From positions 1 to 20,433 of the IMG/VR virus record IMGVR_UViG_3300047564_001140: a stretch of DNA of 20,433 bases. One strand, 5' to 3'. Origin of the DNA: a virus. Position 1 is the stretch's first letter. Each line of letters begins with the position of its first letter. The notes beneath the pieces are model-generated. The model was not told the DNA's origin. It did not search any database and was given only the letters and a program-made list of their open reading frames with translations. This document shows, one piece after another, positions 3,921 through 17,544 of this stretch. The position numbers were made by a program, and so were the translations under genes.

Positions 3921-5000
3921 ATGGCTCAAGTAACTATTCTGCGTGGCGAGTATCGTGGCAACAAAGTTAAGAACCAAACGTTCCGACTTGTTGCAGATCT
4001 CAAGCAGGGTGCTAAGGGTTCTTATGTGACTGTTGAAGACGATGGCTCTTTGGGCTATCCCGGCAAGTCTATTCGTGTTAAAGTTCGTTCAATGGAGGAT
4101 ATTACAGTGGCAGGTTCAAGTGTAGCAGATATGACAGACAGCCAGCGACGCAAGGCTGCTAAAGATGACGGTAGTGTGTTCAGCATTGTTAAGCCTGCTG
4201 AACCTGAAGTTTATACTGAAAGCGAAGAAGCCGCTATTGAGCGTATTCGTGAGCGTTTTGACATCCTTGACGAGATGGCAGAAGGCACTACCACTGGTGC
4301 TGTTCGTGCAATGATTGTCAGCGGCCCTCCCGGCGTAGGTAAATCCTTTGGTGTTGAGAAGAAGCTAGAAGAAGCTAGTCTCTTTGACAAGATGGCTCAA
4401 CGCAAGAACCGTTTTGAAGTTGTTAAGGGTGCGATGAGTGCCATTGGTTTGTATGCTAAACTGTTCAAGTTTAGTGACGCTGGCAATGTCTTGGTGTTCG
4501 ATGACTGCGACAGCATTCTGCTTGACGACTTGAGCCTGAACATTCTCAAGGCCGCTTTGGACTCTAGCAAGAAGCGTTACATTTCTTGGAACACTGACTC
4601 TAGCATGTTGCGTCGTGAAGGTGTACCGGATCGTTTCGAATTTAAAGGTAGTGTGATTTTCATCACTAACATTAAGTTTGAGCACGTTCGCTCCAAGAAG
4701 CTCAAGGATCACTTGGATGCATTGGAAAGCCGTTGCCACTACTTGGACCTGACTTTGGATACCCAGCGTGACAAGTTCCTGCGTATCAAGCAGATTGTGC
4801 GTGATGGTATGCTTGACAGCTATGACTTCGAAGACGGTGCTGCCGAAGAAGTTGTTGACTATGTATGGCAACAACGTAGTCGTCTGCGTGAACTGAGCTT
4901 GCGTACCGTGCTCAAGATTGCAGACCTGCGTAAGATGAGTGCTCACAACTGGAAGCGTCTTGCAGAGACAACTATCCTGAAGCGAGCAGAAGTGTGCTAA
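3921..5000 (+). CDS. AAA+ family ATPase
   Basis: A 359-aa ATP-dependent protein remodeller or motor with unknown substrate. The N-terminal part (1-65) looks like a small beta domain with alternating strands, resembling an OB/KOW-type fold. The AAA+ core shows Walker A GPPGVGKS (135-142), Walker B VLVFDDCD (190-197) and a sensor-1-like VIFITN strand with Asn. The stretch LDALESRC may hold an arginine finger. The C-terminal helical part (about 285-359) fits an AAA+ lid. Ribosome site AGGAG (3908-3912) supports the start. It is preceded by the last of four strong promoters, so abundant early expression is likely. It is not the T4 clamp loader gp44, as the architecture differs. It could act on host proteins or on DNA-bound complexes. 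Confidence 0.85.
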   Translation: MAQVTILRGEYRGNKVKNQTFRLVADLKQGAKGSYVTVEDDGSLGYPGKSIRVKVRSMEDITVAGSSVADMTDSQRRKAAKDDGSVFSIVKPAEPEVYTESEEAAIERIRERFDILDEMAEGTTTGAVRAMIVSGPPGVGKSFGVEKKLEEASLFDKMAQRKNRFEVVKGAMSAIGLYAKLFKFSDAGNVLVFDDCDSILLDDLSLNILKAALDSSKKRYISWNTDSSMLRREGVPDRFEFKGSVIFITNIKFEHVRSKKLKDHLDALESRCHYLDLTLDTQRDKFLRIKQIVRDGMLDSYDFEDGAAEEVVDYVWQQRSRLRELSLRTVLKIADLRKMSAHNWKRLAETTILKRAEVC

Positions 5001-5005
5001 ATCCA

Positions 5006-5025
5006 AAGGAGGAGAAATCCTCCTT
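5006..5025 (+). terminator. Hairpin after the AAA+ gene
   Basis: Perfect 8-bp stem, AAGGAGGA (5006-5013) with TCCTCCTT (5018-5025), with a GAAA loop, five bases after the stop. The tail ATTCATTATATT is only moderately T-rich, so termination may be partial. The left arm is also a perfect anti-16S sequence, but it lies 28 bases before the next likely start and is locked in the stem. Confidence 0.6.
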
Positions 5026-5041
5026 ATTCATTATATTCAAT

Positions 5042-5815
5042 ATGAAATTCAAATCTACCTTTATTGCATTGGTTTGTGGAAGTGTGTTTAGTTCTGGTTG
5101 TGCCAGCATACAAACAAAATCTGCAGATTATATCGTTATTAAACCGTACGGACAAACTACACCGGTACCCACAGTAATTCTTGCTCATGGATGCGATGGG
5201 TTTAGCGATAATAACGGTCAAGGCTATAAGAATAGAGCTCAATTGATCGCCCAGCGTTTTAACTATAACGTAGTTCTTTATGATGCGTTTAAACCTCGAG
5301 GCTGGATGGCAGATGAAGTATGCACCGGCGCACGTGGAGCAAATGCAAATGCAGTGCCTCCGGTCCAACGAGTCGAAGACACCAAGCAAATCGCTCGATG
5401 GGTTCAAGGGCAATCTTGGCATAAAGGTAAAATTTCTTTTATCGGATACAGTCATGGCGGAAGTGTGGCAATGGCCGTGGCGAACGATCCTGAAGCTAGT
5501 AAACTAATTTCTTCTGCGGTTGCATATTATCCTAATTGCGAAGAATGGTATATAGGATCTCGAATCAATCGTCCATTTATTCCTACTCTTGTGCATTTAG
5601 GAGAAGCTGATCAATGGACTCCTATGCAATTCTGTTTAACGCATAAAAATCATTCTAATTATTCTATGTATGTCTACAAGAATGCTACTCATGCATGGGA
5701 ATCAGGAGTCAATACAACTGCTATTGGTAAGTGGCCAATTCGTTTTAATCTAGATGCTACTCAACTAGCAGAAGATCGCACCCGTGAATTTTTTGACAAA
5801 ACTCTTAAGGATTAA
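5042..5815 (+). CDS. Dienelactone-hydrolase-like lipoprotein
   Basis: Predicted exported alpha/beta hydrolase of 257 aa. A signal peptide MKFKSTFIALVCGSVFSSGC carries a lipobox-like site with Cys20, so the mature protein may be a lipoprotein. Catalytic candidates are Ser137 in GYSHGG, Asp190 in GEAD and His217 in THAW, which is the nucleophile-acid-histidine order of the dienelactone hydrolase family. The ILAHGCDGF segment (46-54) fits an oxyanion region. An upstream in-frame GTG at 4994 would put 16 extra residues before the signal peptide, so ATG 5042 is preferred although it has no ribosome site. Such an enzyme is unusual among phage replication genes and suggests a host-derived gene acting on the envelope or on small esters. 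Substrate unknown. Confidence 0.8.
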   Translation: MKFKSTFIALVCGSVFSSGCASIQTKSADYIVIKPYGQTTPVPTVILAHGCDGFSDNNGQGYKNRAQLIAQRFNYNVVLYDAFKPRGWMADEVCTGARGANANAVPPVQRVEDTKQIARWVQGQSWHKGKISFIGYSHGGSVAMAVANDPEASKLISSAVAYYPNCEEWYIGSRINRPFIPTLVHLGEADQWTPMQFCLTHKNHSNYSMYVYKNATHAWESGVNTTAIGKWPIRFNLDATQLAEDRTREFFDKTLKD

Positions 5816-8032: not shown

Positions 8033-8040
8033 TATAAATA
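8033..8040 (+). promoter_or_regulatory. T4-type late promoter, perfect TATAAATA
   Basis: The exact T4 late consensus TATAAATA lies 5 bases before the ATG at 8046. In T4 the last A of this box is near -6, which puts +1 on the start codon. The box sits inside an inverted repeat, CACTAT (8030-8035) and ATAGTG (8038-8043). Confidence 0.8.
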
Positions 8041-8045
8041 GTGGC

Positions 8046-9206
8046 ATGATAATCGACAAGCGATTAGGATATTACACTTGTGCTGGTATAGAATTTGAAT
8101 CTAAAATTCAAGCCTCCTTTCATTCTATTAAGACCAGTCAGCCGGTTGAATGGCATTTCAATGATGAAGTATTTTCAAGACATCATTGGCGAGAACCAAT
8201 AGAAACACTGGATCAACTCTATGATCGCAGATGTAAAGAAATCAGAGAAAAATATGATTATGTAATACTGAGCTACAGCGGTGGAGCAGATAGTCATAAT
8301 ATATTAGCTAGTTTTGTTAGACAAGGTCTGCGTATTGACGAAATTATCGTCAATACAATGGAAAAAGCAAACAGTAAATTTACCGTTATTGATCGAAGAG
8401 ATTTAAGATCAGAAAATGCTGCCGCCGAATACCATCTGCAGACATTGCCCAGATTAAAAGAGTTAGCAGATAAAATACCTGGAACTAAAATAACAGTATG
8501 TGATTTAAGTGATCATTTATTTGATTATATGAATAGTGCCAAAGATGCTAGCTGGGTTCTGGCACGCAAAGAAGGATTAAATCCAGCAAACGTTACTAGG
8601 TTTAACTATCTACATATTAGTGATGTTAGAAAACAGTTTGATAAAAGTAAATCTTTGGTATTGATAGTAGGAGTAGATAAGCCGAGAATTTTTATCAAAG
8701 ATAATTATATTCATACAAGGTTTGGGGATAGAGCAGCAAATATTGTACCGGTACCGGAACATTTAACTGAATATACTAACACCACGGTGGATTTGTTTTA
8801 CTGGAGCCCTTATAGCTTGGATATTATTACTAAACAGGCGTATGTGGTTAGAGCATGGCTATTGATGAATCCTCAGTATATAAATCTATTTCAACATGAT
8901 GTAATGCATCGAGATCCTAAAATTTATAGACTATGTCATGAGAAACTATTAAGGACTATAATTTATACAACATGGGACGCCAATTGGTATCAAGCTGATA
9001 AGGCAGTAAAAGATTGGACTAGTGAATTTGATAGCTGGTTCATTGAAAATTATAGTGATACATCTGCTCATAAAATATGGACAGCTGGAATCAATTATGT
9101 TAAAAACAATCTTAGACCTTTGGTCAAAGAAACAGACGGCGAATTGGATGGCTTGACTTTGTTTGGAAAAAACTATCAGGTCTGCAAATTTAAAGATAAT
9201 CCTTAG
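8046..9206 (+). CDS. PP-loop ATPase (AANH superfamily), paralogue A
   Basis: A 386-aa predicted enzyme that adenylates a substrate with ATP (releasing pyrophosphate). Its signature is the PP-loop SGGADS at residues 78-83, after the strand YDYVILSY. This superfamily includes asparagine synthetase, PAPS reductase, QueC, TilS and DndC; the substrate here is unknown. A 70-residue N-terminal domain (LGYYTCAGIEFESKIQ...EWHFND) precedes the loop and is shared with the paralogue at 10123. Later blocks shared with it are RKEGLNP.NVTRFNY, VRKQFDK, and a Trp-rich C-terminal TTWDANWYQADKAVKDW. It has a perfect late promoter with no room for a ribosome site. Frequent ATA and AGA codons set it apart from gp32 and uvsX. 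Annotations such as asparagine-synthase-like or PAPS-reductase-like would be guesses. Confidence 0.8.
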   Translation: MIIDKRLGYYTCAGIEFESKIQASFHSIKTSQPVEWHFNDEVFSRHHWREPIETLDQLYDRRCKEIREKYDYVILSYSGGADSHNILASFVRQGLRIDEIIVNTMEKANSKFTVIDRRDLRSENAAAEYHLQTLPRLKELADKIPGTKITVCDLSDHLFDYMNSAKDASWVLARKEGLNPANVTRFNYLHISDVRKQFDKSKSLVLIVGVDKPRIFIKDNYIHTRFGDRAANIVPVPEHLTEYTNTTVDLFYWSPYSLDIITKQAYVVRAWLLMNPQYINLFQHDVMHRDPKIYRLCHEKLLRTIIYTTWDANWYQADKAVKDWTSEFDSWFIENYSDTSAHKIWTAGINYVKNNLRPLVKETDGELDGLTLFGKNYQVCKFKDNP

Positions 9207-9212
9207 TAAATA
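9205..9212 (+). promoter_or_regulatory. Possible degenerate late promoter
   Basis: AGTAAATA matches TATAAATA at 6 of 8 positions and lies exactly 5 bases before the ATG at 9218, the same spacing as the perfect late boxes at 8033 and 17537. No ribosome site precedes this gene. Confidence 0.4.
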
Positions 9213-9217
9213 TCTTT

Positions 9218-10126
9218 ATGCTAAAATCTACATATCCAATATTGTGTGTGACCATGAATAAGGTCAGTGATTTAAAGTTAGCACTGGCTTGTCATGCCGC
9301 TGGCATTGTGCCCAGTCTGAGCGTTTACAGTAATACAGAGTTTGTTGAAAATTCAGAGAATTACTACAACAACGAGGCTATCAATGAACTTGATGAGTTC
9401 ATTGAGAAAACTTCTAGCAATGAAATTTCTTTTGCGTTTCAAGCCAACTTATTGCACAATGATTCGTTCTTTAATCAAATTTTAAAAAGTAAAAACAGAC
9501 TAATTGAAATTATTGATTGGAGGAAGGAAGATATAAAAGACAATAAGATATTGGATAGAATTATCAGCTTACAATCACAAAATAAAAAAGTAGGATTAAA
9601 AATTAACACCAACAAGTTAATGCTACTTAGAAATGCAGATCCAAGAAATTTAATTTTGTTAGTTGATTATTATCTGCTCAAAGGGTCAGAGGGTGCTGGA
9701 CAAGTCGGCTTAGAAACTATCGACGACTTAACTGCTGGAATTAGAAAAGAATCATCCAAAGATTTAATAGCTACCGGTGGAGTTTCAACATCAGCTGATA
9801 TCAATCGTTTGATCTCTATAGGGGCCAATGCTGTTGGTATAGGCACTTTGTTTGCAATGAGTGAAGAATCAAGAATACCAAAAGAAGTTAAATTGTCGCT
9901 GTTAGAAAAAACTAAAAATGATATCATTAAAGTCAATGGCACACACCGCGGTATTATGTTTAGTCACGTAGAAGAACACAGTAACGACAATCTTGATAAG
10001 AGTCTCGTGAGAGGAATTGAAACAGGAAAAGAAGGTCACATCAATATGGGAAATGCCATATTAAACATCAATAAAGTTCTTCCTTTAAAAGATATAGTTT
10101 CACTTTTAGTAAAAGATTTAAAATGA
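9218..10126 (+). CDS. Nitronate-monooxygenase-like TIM-barrel flavoprotein
   Basis: A 302-aa predicted FMN-binding (beta/alpha)8 protein. The N-terminal PILCVTMNKVSDLKLALACH followed by AAGIVPSL fits the first strand and helix of nitronate monooxygenases and FabK-type enoyl reductases. KGSEGAGQVG (155-164) fits the family's QG.EAGGH.G loop. IATGGVST (184-191) and GANAVGIGTLFAMSEES (202-218) fit the two FMN-phosphate loops near the C-terminus. Family members oxidise nitronates or reduce enoyl groups with flavin; some related barrels are IMP dehydrogenases. The gene lies between two PP-loop paralogues, 11 bases after one and with a 4-base ATGA overlap with the next, so it probably works with them. 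Specific substrate unknown. Confidence 0.72.
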   Translation: MLKSTYPILCVTMNKVSDLKLALACHAAGIVPSLSVYSNTEFVENSENYYNNEAINELDEFIEKTSSNEISFAFQANLLHNDSFFNQILKSKNRLIEIIDWRKEDIKDNKILDRIISLQSQNKKVGLKINTNKLMLLRNADPRNLILLVDYYLLKGSEGAGQVGLETIDDLTAGIRKESSKDLIATGGVSTSADINRLISIGANAVGIGTLFAMSEESRIPKEVKLSLLEKTKNDIIKVNGTHRGIMFSHVEEHSNDNLDKSLVRGIETGKEGHINMGNAILNINKVLPLKDIVSLLVKDLK

Positions 10127-11286
10127 ATAAAAAATTAGGTTATTACACTGTAAACGGTATTGAGTTTGAATCTAAGATTCACGCTTGCCTATATGTTACT
10201 AAAAACAATTTGCCTGAAAGTGCGCTACAATGGCATTTCAATGATTTTGAATTTAATTCATTCGATTGGACAGTTGAACCAACAGAAACACTAGACGAAC
10301 TGTATAATGCCAGAGCACGTCAGCTACGAGAATCATATGATTATATCATATTAAGTTATAGCGGTGGCGCCGACAGCCATAATGCATTAATGAGTTTTCT
10401 GAGACAAGGTTTGCACGTAGATGAATTGTTAATTAATACCTTCGACGAAGCGTTAAAAAATGTTAAAATAGATCCTGCAAATAAAGCAGCAACAACCGCG
10501 CCGCAGTTGGAACATCATTTGCAGACGGTGCCGAGACTTAAAGAAATTGCGACGATGTCGCCTAAAACTAAGATAACAATCTTAGATATGTCTAATCACC
10601 TCTTTAACTTTCATGACTATTACAAAGATGAAAGTTGGGTCTTGACAAGAAAAGAAGGATTGAATCCTTTGAATGTCACCCGGTTTAATTACATTTACAT
10701 TGATCAGGTACGAAAACAGTTTGATAAAACTAAATCAATTGCCATTGTTGCTGGAGTAGAAAAACCTAGGATAGCTGTGCGATCCGACGATGTCATGTAT
10801 ACATACTTCAATGACAAGTCGGCAAATATATCTTCAATCGCAGATAATACTAAAGAATATGCCAACGCCACTGTTGAGCTGTTTTATTGGGCACCTGAGT
10901 CTCTTAAAATGATTTCTAAGCAACTTCATACCGTTAAAAAATTAATTGAATTTAATCCTACATATAGAAGTTTTTTCAAAGGCAGCACATTCCACACAGT
11001 TAGATTAATAATTGAACCATTTTTAAGAAGTGTGTTATATCCTACTACTTGGAACAATGATTGGTATCAGGGGGAAAAGGCTCTGTCAGATTGGTTTAGT
11101 GAATTTGATTATTGGTTTATTTTTGGTCAAAAAGGTACCAAGGCTCATGACTTATGGTATTCTGGTGTAAAATACATTGGGGAAAATGCCGGCAGTTTTG
11201 TTAAGAGAGACGAAGCCGGACGAGCCATTGGTACTAAGCCAATTTTTAAATATTACAAAATCGGCAGTCTAAACATTAGAAATTAA
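10123..11286 (+). CDS. PP-loop ATPase (AANH superfamily), paralogue B
   Basis: A 387-aa paralogue of the gene at 8046, colinear over its whole length. Shared blocks are LGYYTVNGIEFESKIH at the N-terminus, the PP-loop SGGADS (80-85), RQGL..DELLINT, RKEGLNPLNVTRFNY, VRKQFDKTKS, and TTWNNDWYQGEKALSDW near the C-terminus. The start overlaps the flavoprotein stop (ATGA). The two copies have diverged strongly outside these blocks, so the duplication is old or the two act on different substrates or as a heteromer. The 3' end overlaps the opposing gene by 18 bases, tail to tail. Function inferred only as ATP-dependent activation of an unknown acid, amide or base. Confidence 0.8.
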   Translation: MNKKLGYYTVNGIEFESKIHACLYVTKNNLPESALQWHFNDFEFNSFDWTVEPTETLDELYNARARQLRESYDYIILSYSGGADSHNALMSFLRQGLHVDELLINTFDEALKNVKIDPANKAATTAPQLEHHLQTVPRLKEIATMSPKTKITILDMSNHLFNFHDYYKDESWVLTRKEGLNPLNVTRFNYIYIDQVRKQFDKTKSIAIVAGVEKPRIAVRSDDVMYTYFNDKSANISSIADNTKEYANATVELFYWAPESLKMISKQLHTVKKLIEFNPTYRSFFKGSTFHTVRLIIEPFLRSVLYPTTWNNDWYQGEKALSDWFSEFDYWFIFGQKGTKAHDLWYSGVKYIGENAGSFVKRDEAGRAIGTKPIFKYYKIGSLNIRN

Positions 11287-12252
11287 TTCAGCTTTTCGCC
11301 TGAATTCGTGCGCTATAAATCTTTGATTCTTTATATTTTGATAGTAGCGTCTGGTTTCGCCTGAACAGGATTCTAAAAATTTTAGGAAAGAACCAAGGGG
11401 TAGAGCAACGGCAATAGTGCTAAGAATACCCGGTCCTTCTTTGTGCTGCCTTACTACATTGATCCAATCTATAGATTTAAACCCTTGGTTCTTAGTAAAA
11501 AACATCAGCTCGGTGTTAGACCAATACTTTCCGTAAATTAAAGGTTTGATATAGTAATCCCATCTGTCAGGCCCATTTAACTTGACACCGGGTTTTGTTA
11601 AACCGTTGTCTTTAAAGTAATCCCATGCATTGATACATGCTTGATAAACATCATCATTTAAAATGCTGTATAAAAATTCCGAAGTATCGCCGTAAGAAAT
11701 AATTTGGCCAGATCTATTTAAAGTTTTAGCAGCCCGGTCTTTATAAATTTCCGGAGAATAGTAGCCCATATACCAAAAAACTTTTGGGCCAGAATCTTCC
11801 AAGATGAATACAAAGGGATCGTGTACCATCGAAACTATATTGGCATTTTCTGGCAGTTTAGATACAAAAATATTTTGTAAGATACAGTTTGGATGAATGT
11901 CGAATTCTTCTGCCTTGGCTAAAATTTCTTCTTTGTAATCTTCGGGGTTTAGTTCAATGATATGAGTTTTGATTTTATTTTTTGCGTCTACTAATTTAAC
12001 TTGTTCCAATTCATTATCATTGTGGCCAGGATGCCACATAAACACAGATTCAAAAGGAACCCCGGCCTTTAAAAAACTAAGTATCATGGCTTGACTATCT
12101 ATGCCACCGCTGTTGCTAACCCATATATTAGAATACTTTGATCCGATGTCAATTGCTCGTTTCTCTGTTTCTTGTCGCATATTCCCTGGTCGATATAAAC
12201 AGGACTGGTAATCGACGTAGAACAATCCGTCATCGGCAAAACCATAATTCAT
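11269..12252 (-). CDS. Third PP-loop ATPase (asparagine-synthase-like)
   Basis: A 327-aa protein on the minus strand with the PP-loop SGGIDS at residues 48-53, preceded by the strand NIWVSN. The helix QAMILSFLKAG and the strand SVFMWHPGHND follow, as in asparagine-synthetase and ATP-sulfurylase/PAPS-reductase-type domains. It shares little with the two plus-strand paralogues beyond the loop, and its N-terminal part is shorter (about 47 residues before the loop). It follows the GNAT-like gene with a 4-base ATGA overlap, so the two are probably translated together. It converges on the plus-strand PP-loop operon, giving three PP-loop enzymes within 4.2 kb. Ribosome-like AAAGGA lies 10-15 bases upstream of the start. 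Confidence 0.78.
   Translation of the reverse strand: MNYGFADDGLFYVDYQSCLYRPGNMRQETEKRAIDIGSKYSNIWVSNSGGIDSQAMILSFLKAGVPFESVFMWHPGHNDNELEQVKLVDAKNKIKTHIIELNPEDYKEEILAKAEEFDIHPNCILQNIFVSKLPENANIVSMVHDPFVFILEDSGPKVFWYMGYYSPEIYKDRAAKTLNRSGQIISYGDTSEFLYSILNDDVYQACINAWDYFKDNGLTKPGVKLNGPDRWDYYIKPLIYGKYWSNTELMFFTKNQGFKSIDWINVVRQHKEGPGILSTIAVALPLGSFLKFLESCSGETRRYYQNIKNQRFIAHEFRRKAELISNV
11285..11306. repeat. Inverted repeat at the convergent gene ends
   Basis: AATTCAG (11285-11291) pairs with CTGAATT (11300-11306) across an 8-base loop, in the 3' coding end of the minus-strand PP-loop gene and right at the stop of the plus-strand one. There is no T-run on either side, so intrinsic termination is doubtful. 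Confidence 0.3.
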
Positions 12253-12884
12253 AGTATAGTTCCTTTATAATCCATATGATTTTCCTTTTGCAGATAATTT
12301 ACACGTTCATGTTGATTTAACACAAACAGTCTTGCAACCATGTCAGTCCAATCTACAGTTTTTGTTCCCCTAAAAGAATTAAAAATTTTAGTCGGAGACA
12401 GAGTACCTCGTTTGATAACTTCTTCATCAAACCACTGATAGCGTCCCAGGGTGCTGCTGTGACGTTTCATAATTTTATTTCTTATGTTATGATGTTGCTC
12501 CGGCGAAATCATCCAAAATTTATAATACCCGTCTTTTTCCATTTCTGTTATTAACAAGTCTAAGGCCGGCGCCATAATTTCTGCAGACTTATTGAAATGA
12601 TTATGTTGCCCGCCAATTTTTGTTAGACCCACAATCCAACCTTTTAAAGTTGGAAACTTATAGCCAACATACATAGCTATGGGACGATTATCATCATCAG
12701 AATCAACAATGGAAGTCATCACCGCGATACCATCAACTAGTAAACGCTTGATCATATCAACAATTAAAATTTGTTCTTCTGTGTCTTTTTCTATTCGAAA
12801 TATTTTGTTATCTTCTTCGAACAGTGTGTTGACACAACGCTCAACTTGATCGAGCGTGACCAGCACAGCATTAAAATTTGGCAT
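12249..12884 (-). CDS. Possible GNAT-family acetyltransferase
   Basis: A 211-aa protein. Residues 70-130 (RPIAMYVGYKFPTLKGWIVGLTKIGG, then a helix APALDLLITEMEKDGYYKFWMISP) are consistent with the central strands and helix of an N-acetyltransferase fold, which would use acetyl-CoA to acylate an amine. The classical acetyl-CoA P-loop (Q/R-x-x-G-x-G/A) is not clear, so this is tentative. The C-terminal part (WTDMVARLFVLNQHER) is unrecognised. Ribosome site AAAGGA lies 6 bases before the ATG. It is the first gene of a two-gene minus-strand operon with the third PP-loop ATPase. Confidence 0.5.
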   Translation of the reverse strand: MPNFNAVLVTLDQVERCVNTLFEEDNKIFRIEKDTEEQILIVDMIKRLLVDGIAVMTSIVDSDDDNRPIAMYVGYKFPTLKGWIVGLTKIGGQHNHFNKSAEIMAPALDLLITEMEKDGYYKFWMISPEQHHNIRNKIMKRHSSTLGRYQWFDEEVIKRGTLSPTKIFNSFRGTKTVDWTDMVARLFVLNQHERVNYLQKENHMDYKGTIL

Positions 12885-17536: not shown

Positions 17537-17544
17537 TATAAATA
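17537..17544 (+). promoter_or_regulatory. T4-type late promoter, perfect TATAAATA
   Basis: Exact late consensus, 5 bases before the ATG at 17550. This is the same spacing as at 8033, so +1 again falls on the start codon. It is back-to-back with the minus-strand late-like box. Confidence 0.8.

Follow-up and report, generated by a model that had tools for sequence, protein, structure and literature searches.

Enzymes of the asparagine synthetase superfamily adenylate a carboxylate and then hand it to ammonia or to an amine. In the clavam and carbapenem pathways, a ligase derived from AsnB is encoded beside an iron oxygenase; the ligase has no glutaminase activity, and keeps a degenerate glutaminase domain. 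Here we consider a phage locus that recalls these systems. The window, by which we mean the whole stretch of DNA analyzed, is an uncultured-virus record of 20,433 bases (IMG/VR record IMGVR_UViG_3300047564_001140), and is only a fragment. Its block at 8046-12884 holds five genes: three for PP-loop proteins, which belong to two families that we call PPA (PPA1 and PPA2) and PPB and that we predict to be ligases of the asparagine synthetase type, one for a FabK-like protein, and one for a GNAT-like protein. We think the chances about even that this block is the core of a late-expressed, phage-dedicated small-molecule pathway.

Some of the partners that such genes have in related phages belong to the same families as phage auxiliary metabolic genes already described, namely fatty-acid desaturases and the tctA found on a SUP05 phage contig (PMC4164917, PMC11480375, PMC7678222). 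Those genes were reported without ligases, and a set joining ligase, FabK-like protein, oxygenase and receptor was found in no report. An earlier, sequence-only reading of this DNA knew of no named system with the composition of the block, and our literature search found none described. Each enzyme comes from a known superfamily; no function has been described for either ligase family or for the FabK-like branch.

What do the three PP-loop proteins most resemble? PPA1 (386 residues) is encoded on the plus strand at 8046-9206, and its paralogue PPA2 (387 residues, 48% identity to PPA1) on the same strand at 10123-11286. PPB (327 residues), of the second family, is encoded on the minus strand at 11269-12252. 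The sequence-only reading had listed three SGGxDS PP-loop ATPases here; the open reading frames (ORFs) are confirmed at these coordinates, all three carry the loop, and the loop is conserved in both families, the serine, glycine and aspartate being present in 81, 82 and 82 of 82 PPA members and in 52, 54 and 50 of 54 PPB members. The PPA family alignment has two further near-invariant residues, K212 (82/82) and K319 (81/82). In PPB, K254 is kept in 51 of 54 members, with arginine at -2 in 20 members and glycine at +3 in 43. A near-invariant lysine pair of PPB lies about where AsnB has its lysines, a match in position that we infer; K319 of PPA cannot be aligned by sequence to the C-terminal lysine of the R-x-K-x-G/F region of AsnB.

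The fold points in one direction for both families. AlphaFold models built from alignments of 82 PPA and 54 PPB relatives have mean pLDDT values of 95.6 and 89.5, and the structure prediction that the sequence-only reading had proposed as a check finds an intact ATP loop within confidently modeled synthetase folds. When these predicted models are compared by Foldseek and VIA-align, both families group with the asparagine, beta-lactam and carbapenam synthetases, and NAD synthetase, GMP synthetase, LarE and QueC rank below. By VIA-align the PPA model matches AsnB with a Z of 11.5 (5.0 Å root-mean-square deviation (rmsd) over 281 residues) and beta-lactam synthetase with a Z of 10.4, the remaining PP-loop enzymes scoring 7-8; the PPB model matches human asparagine synthetase with a Z of 12.7 (4.4 Å rmsd, 248 residues) and beta-lactam synthetase with a Z of 12.6. 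The PPB profile also finds AsnB (probability 94), certain PPB members match PF00733 (Asn_synthase) at 3.9e-11, and profile comparison indicates that PPA and PPB are homologous (probability 96.9). As modeled, PPA and PPB are synthetase domains of the asparagine-synthetase/beta-lactam-synthetase type from which the glutaminase has been lost (PPB) or nearly lost (PPA). It had been suggested from sequence that the PP-loop enzymes activate carboxyls, amides or bases; the fold favors carboxylate ligases, and does not favor generic base-modifying PP-loop enzymes.

The likeness to AsnB (PF00733) consists of the PP-loop and the synthetase-domain fold, seen in both PPA and PPB, and perhaps also of the PPB lysines. 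The differences are considerable. No glutaminase domain with Cys2 is found at the N-termini of the window proteins, which begin MIID, MNKK and MNYG. PPA can be aligned to AsnB from residue 72 of the latter, and PPB from about residue 140, and therefore the glutaminase domain is missing, though in PPA a remnant of the end of that domain may survive as the first 45 residues. PPA and PPB are, moreover, separate phage families with several paralogues per genome, and for the window proteins none of the models of Pfam, PHROG and NCBIfam exceeds its threshold. Across Pfam, PHROG, NCBIfam and PADLOC there is no family for PPA, and window PPB has sub-threshold matches only. Beta-lactam and carbapenam synthetases likewise have the fold in common with PPA and PPB, but their inactive glutaminase domain is absent here, save for the possible relic in PPA. 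In the clavam and carbapenem pathways the oxygenase is 2-oxoglutarate (2OG)-dependent, whereas that of the phage islands is of the Rieske or fatty-acid-hydroxylase type. By this analogy we see resemblance to those pathways, not membership in them.

Between the PPA genes, at 9218-10126 on the plus strand, lies the gene for a 302-residue TIM-barrel protein of the FabK/nitronate-monooxygenase superfamily. The sequence-only reading had it as a flavoprotein like nitronate monooxygenase (NMO), and the protein does exceed the cut-off of PF03060 (NMO), with 35.4 against 28 bits. Its closest relative is nevertheless FabK, the flavin mononucleotide (FMN)-dependent enoyl-acyl-carrier-protein reductase II: a profile built from 28 phage relatives gives a full-length match to FabK (E 2e-19), nitronate monooxygenases coming slightly lower. 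The histidine of the GGH motif, located through the FabK alignment, is replaced by arginine in 23 of the 28 family members and by glutamine in the window protein. The family retains the phosphate-binding GG motif, and Glu97, Lys128 and Lys155 are invariant among the 28 relatives. For this branch, which is phage-specific in the collections searched, binding of FMN is likely, whereas the protein is unlikely to act as a plain nitronate monooxygenase.

The genes are tightly packed. The FabK-like gene and PPA2 overlap by the four bases ATGA at 10123-10126, just as the sequence-only reading had it. On the opposite strand, PPB and the gene for the 211-residue GNAT-like protein (12249-12884, minus strand) likewise overlap by four bases, at 12249-12252, and PPB is translationally coupled to it. 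PPA2 and PPB are convergent, and their 3' ends overlap by 18 nucleotides. The GNAT-like protein is related to families f66 and f22; f66 genes, which encode its relatives, directly follow PPB in other phages, and in one of these (L041) PPB and the f66 gene again have a four-base overlap.

Do these genes keep company elsewhere? Neighborhoods were counted in 75 non-redundant loci, and positions on whole contigs were compared with random placement; because the core genes served to recruit the loci and certain contigs are kin to one another, comparison with random placement makes the cases look more independent than they are, and the counts that follow are descriptive. The commonest cluster members are PPA, PPB, TctC and the FabK-like gene; next in frequency come families of the FA_desaturase, DUF2061, radical SAM, GNAT, Rieske and FA_hydroxylase kinds. 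Of 21 FabK-like genes, 20 lie no more than 5 kb from a PPA gene (4.1 at random), and TctC is near PPA in 36 of 44 cases (7.4 at random). A desaturase is near PPA or PPB in 31 of 52 cases, against 10.7. All 10 Rieske oxygenases, and 9 of 12 enzymes of the FA_hydroxylase type, are within 1.7 kb of PPB, about 1 being expected at random for each. PPB is near PPA in 42 of 64 cases (12.3 at random), which supports the suspected link between the two convergent operons, and the search for the gene set in other phage genomes shows that homologues co-occur in many phages. The refuting outcomes named in the sequence-only reading, homologues never found together or no ATP pocket in the models, did not arise. 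In one phage, L020, an operon of overlapping genes reads PPA-TctC-FabK-TctC-PPA-PPA-TctC, and a second reads desaturase-GNAT-desaturase-hydroxylase-PPB. Rieske and FA_hydroxylase enzymes seem at first sight to exclude one another, one contig having both (of 10 and 12 contigs, respectively), but the expected overlap is only about two, and we do not claim that they replace one another.

The related islands hold other small-molecule enzymes as well: an enolase-superfamily protein, an amidohydrolase and a TauD dioxygenase (L014 13465-14544; L041 5467-6576; L041 14703-15587). Genes for a TctA permease and a DctP receptor are found close to ligases (L072 4152-5465 and L018 4830-5771). A further PP-loop family of the QueC type, f48, which is above the PF06508 cut-off, shares islands in several phages (for example, L013 13169-13801).

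When would the block be expressed? The perfect late promoter noted from the sequence is confirmed: a T4-type octamer, TATAAATA, is present on the plus strand at 8033-8040, ending five nucleotides upstream of the PPA1 ATG. As a count it is unremarkable, since the window has two copies (the other at 17537-17544) against 1.66 expected by chance. It is the placement that is strongly over-represented. Among 1,270 non-redundant ORFs of related phages (L004-L116), 23 have an octamer that ends 4-7 nucleotides ahead of their first start codon; these are 10, 8, 3 and 2 ORFs at offsets of 4, 5, 6 and 7, against about 0.05 expected for each, and there are none at 8-15. The genes so placed include PPA, PPB and TctC. 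The spacing was considered as a signature of the PPA/PPB module and rejected; it is enriched there, yet is also found outside the module. The T4-type late octamer is located at -13 to -6 (PMC1524935), and therefore transcription would begin at or beside the ATG, which suggests that the late mRNAs are leaderless. The placement supports late expression of the block.

Relatives of these proteins are found among uncultured phages. A scan of 2.9 million IMG/VR viral contigs gave 293 PPA loci, all from uncultured phages, of which 80 were retrieved for analysis. The same collection gave 14 FabK-like loci and 20 PPB loci with alignments as queries, single-protein scans with PPB and the FabK-like protein having found no relatives; clustering of neighborhoods raised the totals to 45 and 73 among the retrieved loci. 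PPA1, PPB and their relatives have no match in 50,697 cultivated-phage records, and TctC and a FabK-like relative have no match among cultivated phages either. The window FabK-like protein has only partial matches there, of 27-32% identity, in four Listeria phage records. The PPA profile, run without a positive control, found nothing in two of the cultivated phages that are closest to the window phage. A pattern-based scan of 84,980 prokaryotic genomes, of limited sensitivity, found no relative by the PPA and FabK-like motifs, and in a library of predicted viral protein structures PPA relatives appear only as uncharacterized proteins of uncultured Caudovirales. Within the collections searched, PPA is restricted to phages.

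The proposal that the source of the window is a phage is supported. Among its remaining genes are those of a T4-like set for replication and recombination: single-strand binding protein, UvsX, UvsY, helicase and primase. By its helicase the window phage comes closest, among cultivated phages and at 51-55% identity, to jumbo phages, namely Phosso and a Pseudomonas phage group that includes Callisto (Wroclawvirus). A dienelactone-hydrolase-like protein (4994-5815; PF01738, E 4.6e-9) is encoded within the replication gene cluster; it has a lipoprotein-like signal, and its true start is probably downstream of the listed GTG.

Several points weigh against a dedicated pathway. Besides the shared recruitment of the loci, the make-up of the island varies widely among phages: a clear FabK-like gene is on only 23 of 50 contigs, and one 41-kb contig carries the FabK-like gene without PPA. 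In the window itself, a 20-kb fragment, the block lacks a neighboring TctC, desaturase or oxygenase. Foldseek matches PPA weakly (best E 1.8e-4), and the AsnB profile fails to detect PPA by sequence (probability 6), for which reason the assignment of PPA rests on its fold and on PPB. The GNAT assignment is weak too: the possible acetyltransferase of the sequence-only reading exists as an ORF, and GNAT models are weakly matched by 3 of 11 aligned relatives (best E 0.0013), but the window protein itself has no Pfam match, nor any family from PHROG, NCBIfam or PADLOC.

Could the island instead remodel membrane lipids during infection? The desaturase, hydroxylase and FabK-like enzymes would then alter acyl chains, and the ligases and GNAT would make acyl-amides or aminolipids. 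This is the main rival, and we hold it to be unlikely. FabK is the nearest solved relative of the FabK-like protein, FA_desaturase is present on 26 of 49 contigs and FA_hydroxylase is over its cut-off on 12, and aquatic phage sequences are reported to include fatty-acid desaturases (PMC11480375, PMC7678222). The window block, however, has no desaturase, the Rieske alternative is atypical for lipid hydroxylation, and there is no glycerolipid acyltransferase among the annotated recurrent neighbors. The receptors speak against acyl chains as well, for TctC and DctP bind small carboxylates. One might also think of a hot spot that gathers independent host-takeover genes, so that the genes lie close together because of where they insert and not because they form a single pathway. 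The composition is variable, with radical SAM proteins, 2OG oxygenases, GNATs and others present too, and the G+C content of the block, at 34-36% against 40-42% in the flanks, is consistent with imported cargo. Against this stand the identical pairs repeated in overlapping operons of differing arrangement (L020, L018, L041 and the window), and the placing of PPB next to an iron oxygenase of either type in nearly all cases; we consider unlinked cargo unlikely, slightly more so than lipid remodeling.

The sequence-only reading of the block as a pathway modifying a small molecule, DNA or a surface glycan is supported for the small molecule. For DNA and glycans it is not supported: the partners that recur are desaturases of membranes, oxygenases and carboxylate receptors that are exported, and enzymes acting on DNA or sugar nucleotides are not among them. 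In a nucleic-acid role, phage DNA or tRNA would be the target of PP-loop ATPases of the QueC, TilS, MnmA or DndC kind, the GNAT and flavoprotein acting later. PPB does have weak matches to QueC (11.8 against a cut-off of 22 bits) and to ThiI, also below cut-off, and its profile matches in the PDB include MnmA, QueC and Cap9. With asparagine and beta-lactam synthetases at the top of the fold ranking for both families, exported receptors and membrane enzymes as recurrent partners, and no partner like tRNA-guanine transglycosylase among annotated neighbors, this role is very improbable. Amidation of a surface glycan in the manner of WbuX or PseA we find scarcely credible: PPA1 matches WbuX (TIGR03573) at 13 bits, where the cut-off is 203.2, and the annotated recurrent neighbors include no partner of the HisF2/HisH2 type, no glycosyltransferase and no sugar-nucleotide enzyme.

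How, then, might a dedicated small-molecule pathway proceed? We propose that the TctC, DctP and TctA proteins of related phages would bring in a carboxylate precursor, which PPA and PPB would adenylate with ATP and couple to free ammonia or an amine, the free substrate being used because the glutaminase domain is lost or nearly lost. The amide might be formed between molecules or within one, in the manner of beta-lactam and carbapenam synthetases. A reduction of an acyl chain or of some intermediate, or a comparable reaction on it, would fall to the FabK-like protein, and acylation of an amine to the GNAT-like one. In related phages, acyl desaturases and oxygenases of the Rieske or fatty-acid-hydroxylase type may tailor the product. 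A bolder and more tentative possibility is a biosynthesis exclusive to phages, diversified within them and not recently borrowed from bacteria, whose late product might be an amide, a beta-lactam-like ring or an acyl-amide, for example.

The recurring gene pairs are directly testable enzyme combinations. If the proposal is correct, many environmental phages would own an amide-forming biosynthesis that has no known bacterial counterpart, and its product might serve as a signal, a membrane-active compound, a compound directed at competitors, or an effector of host metabolism.

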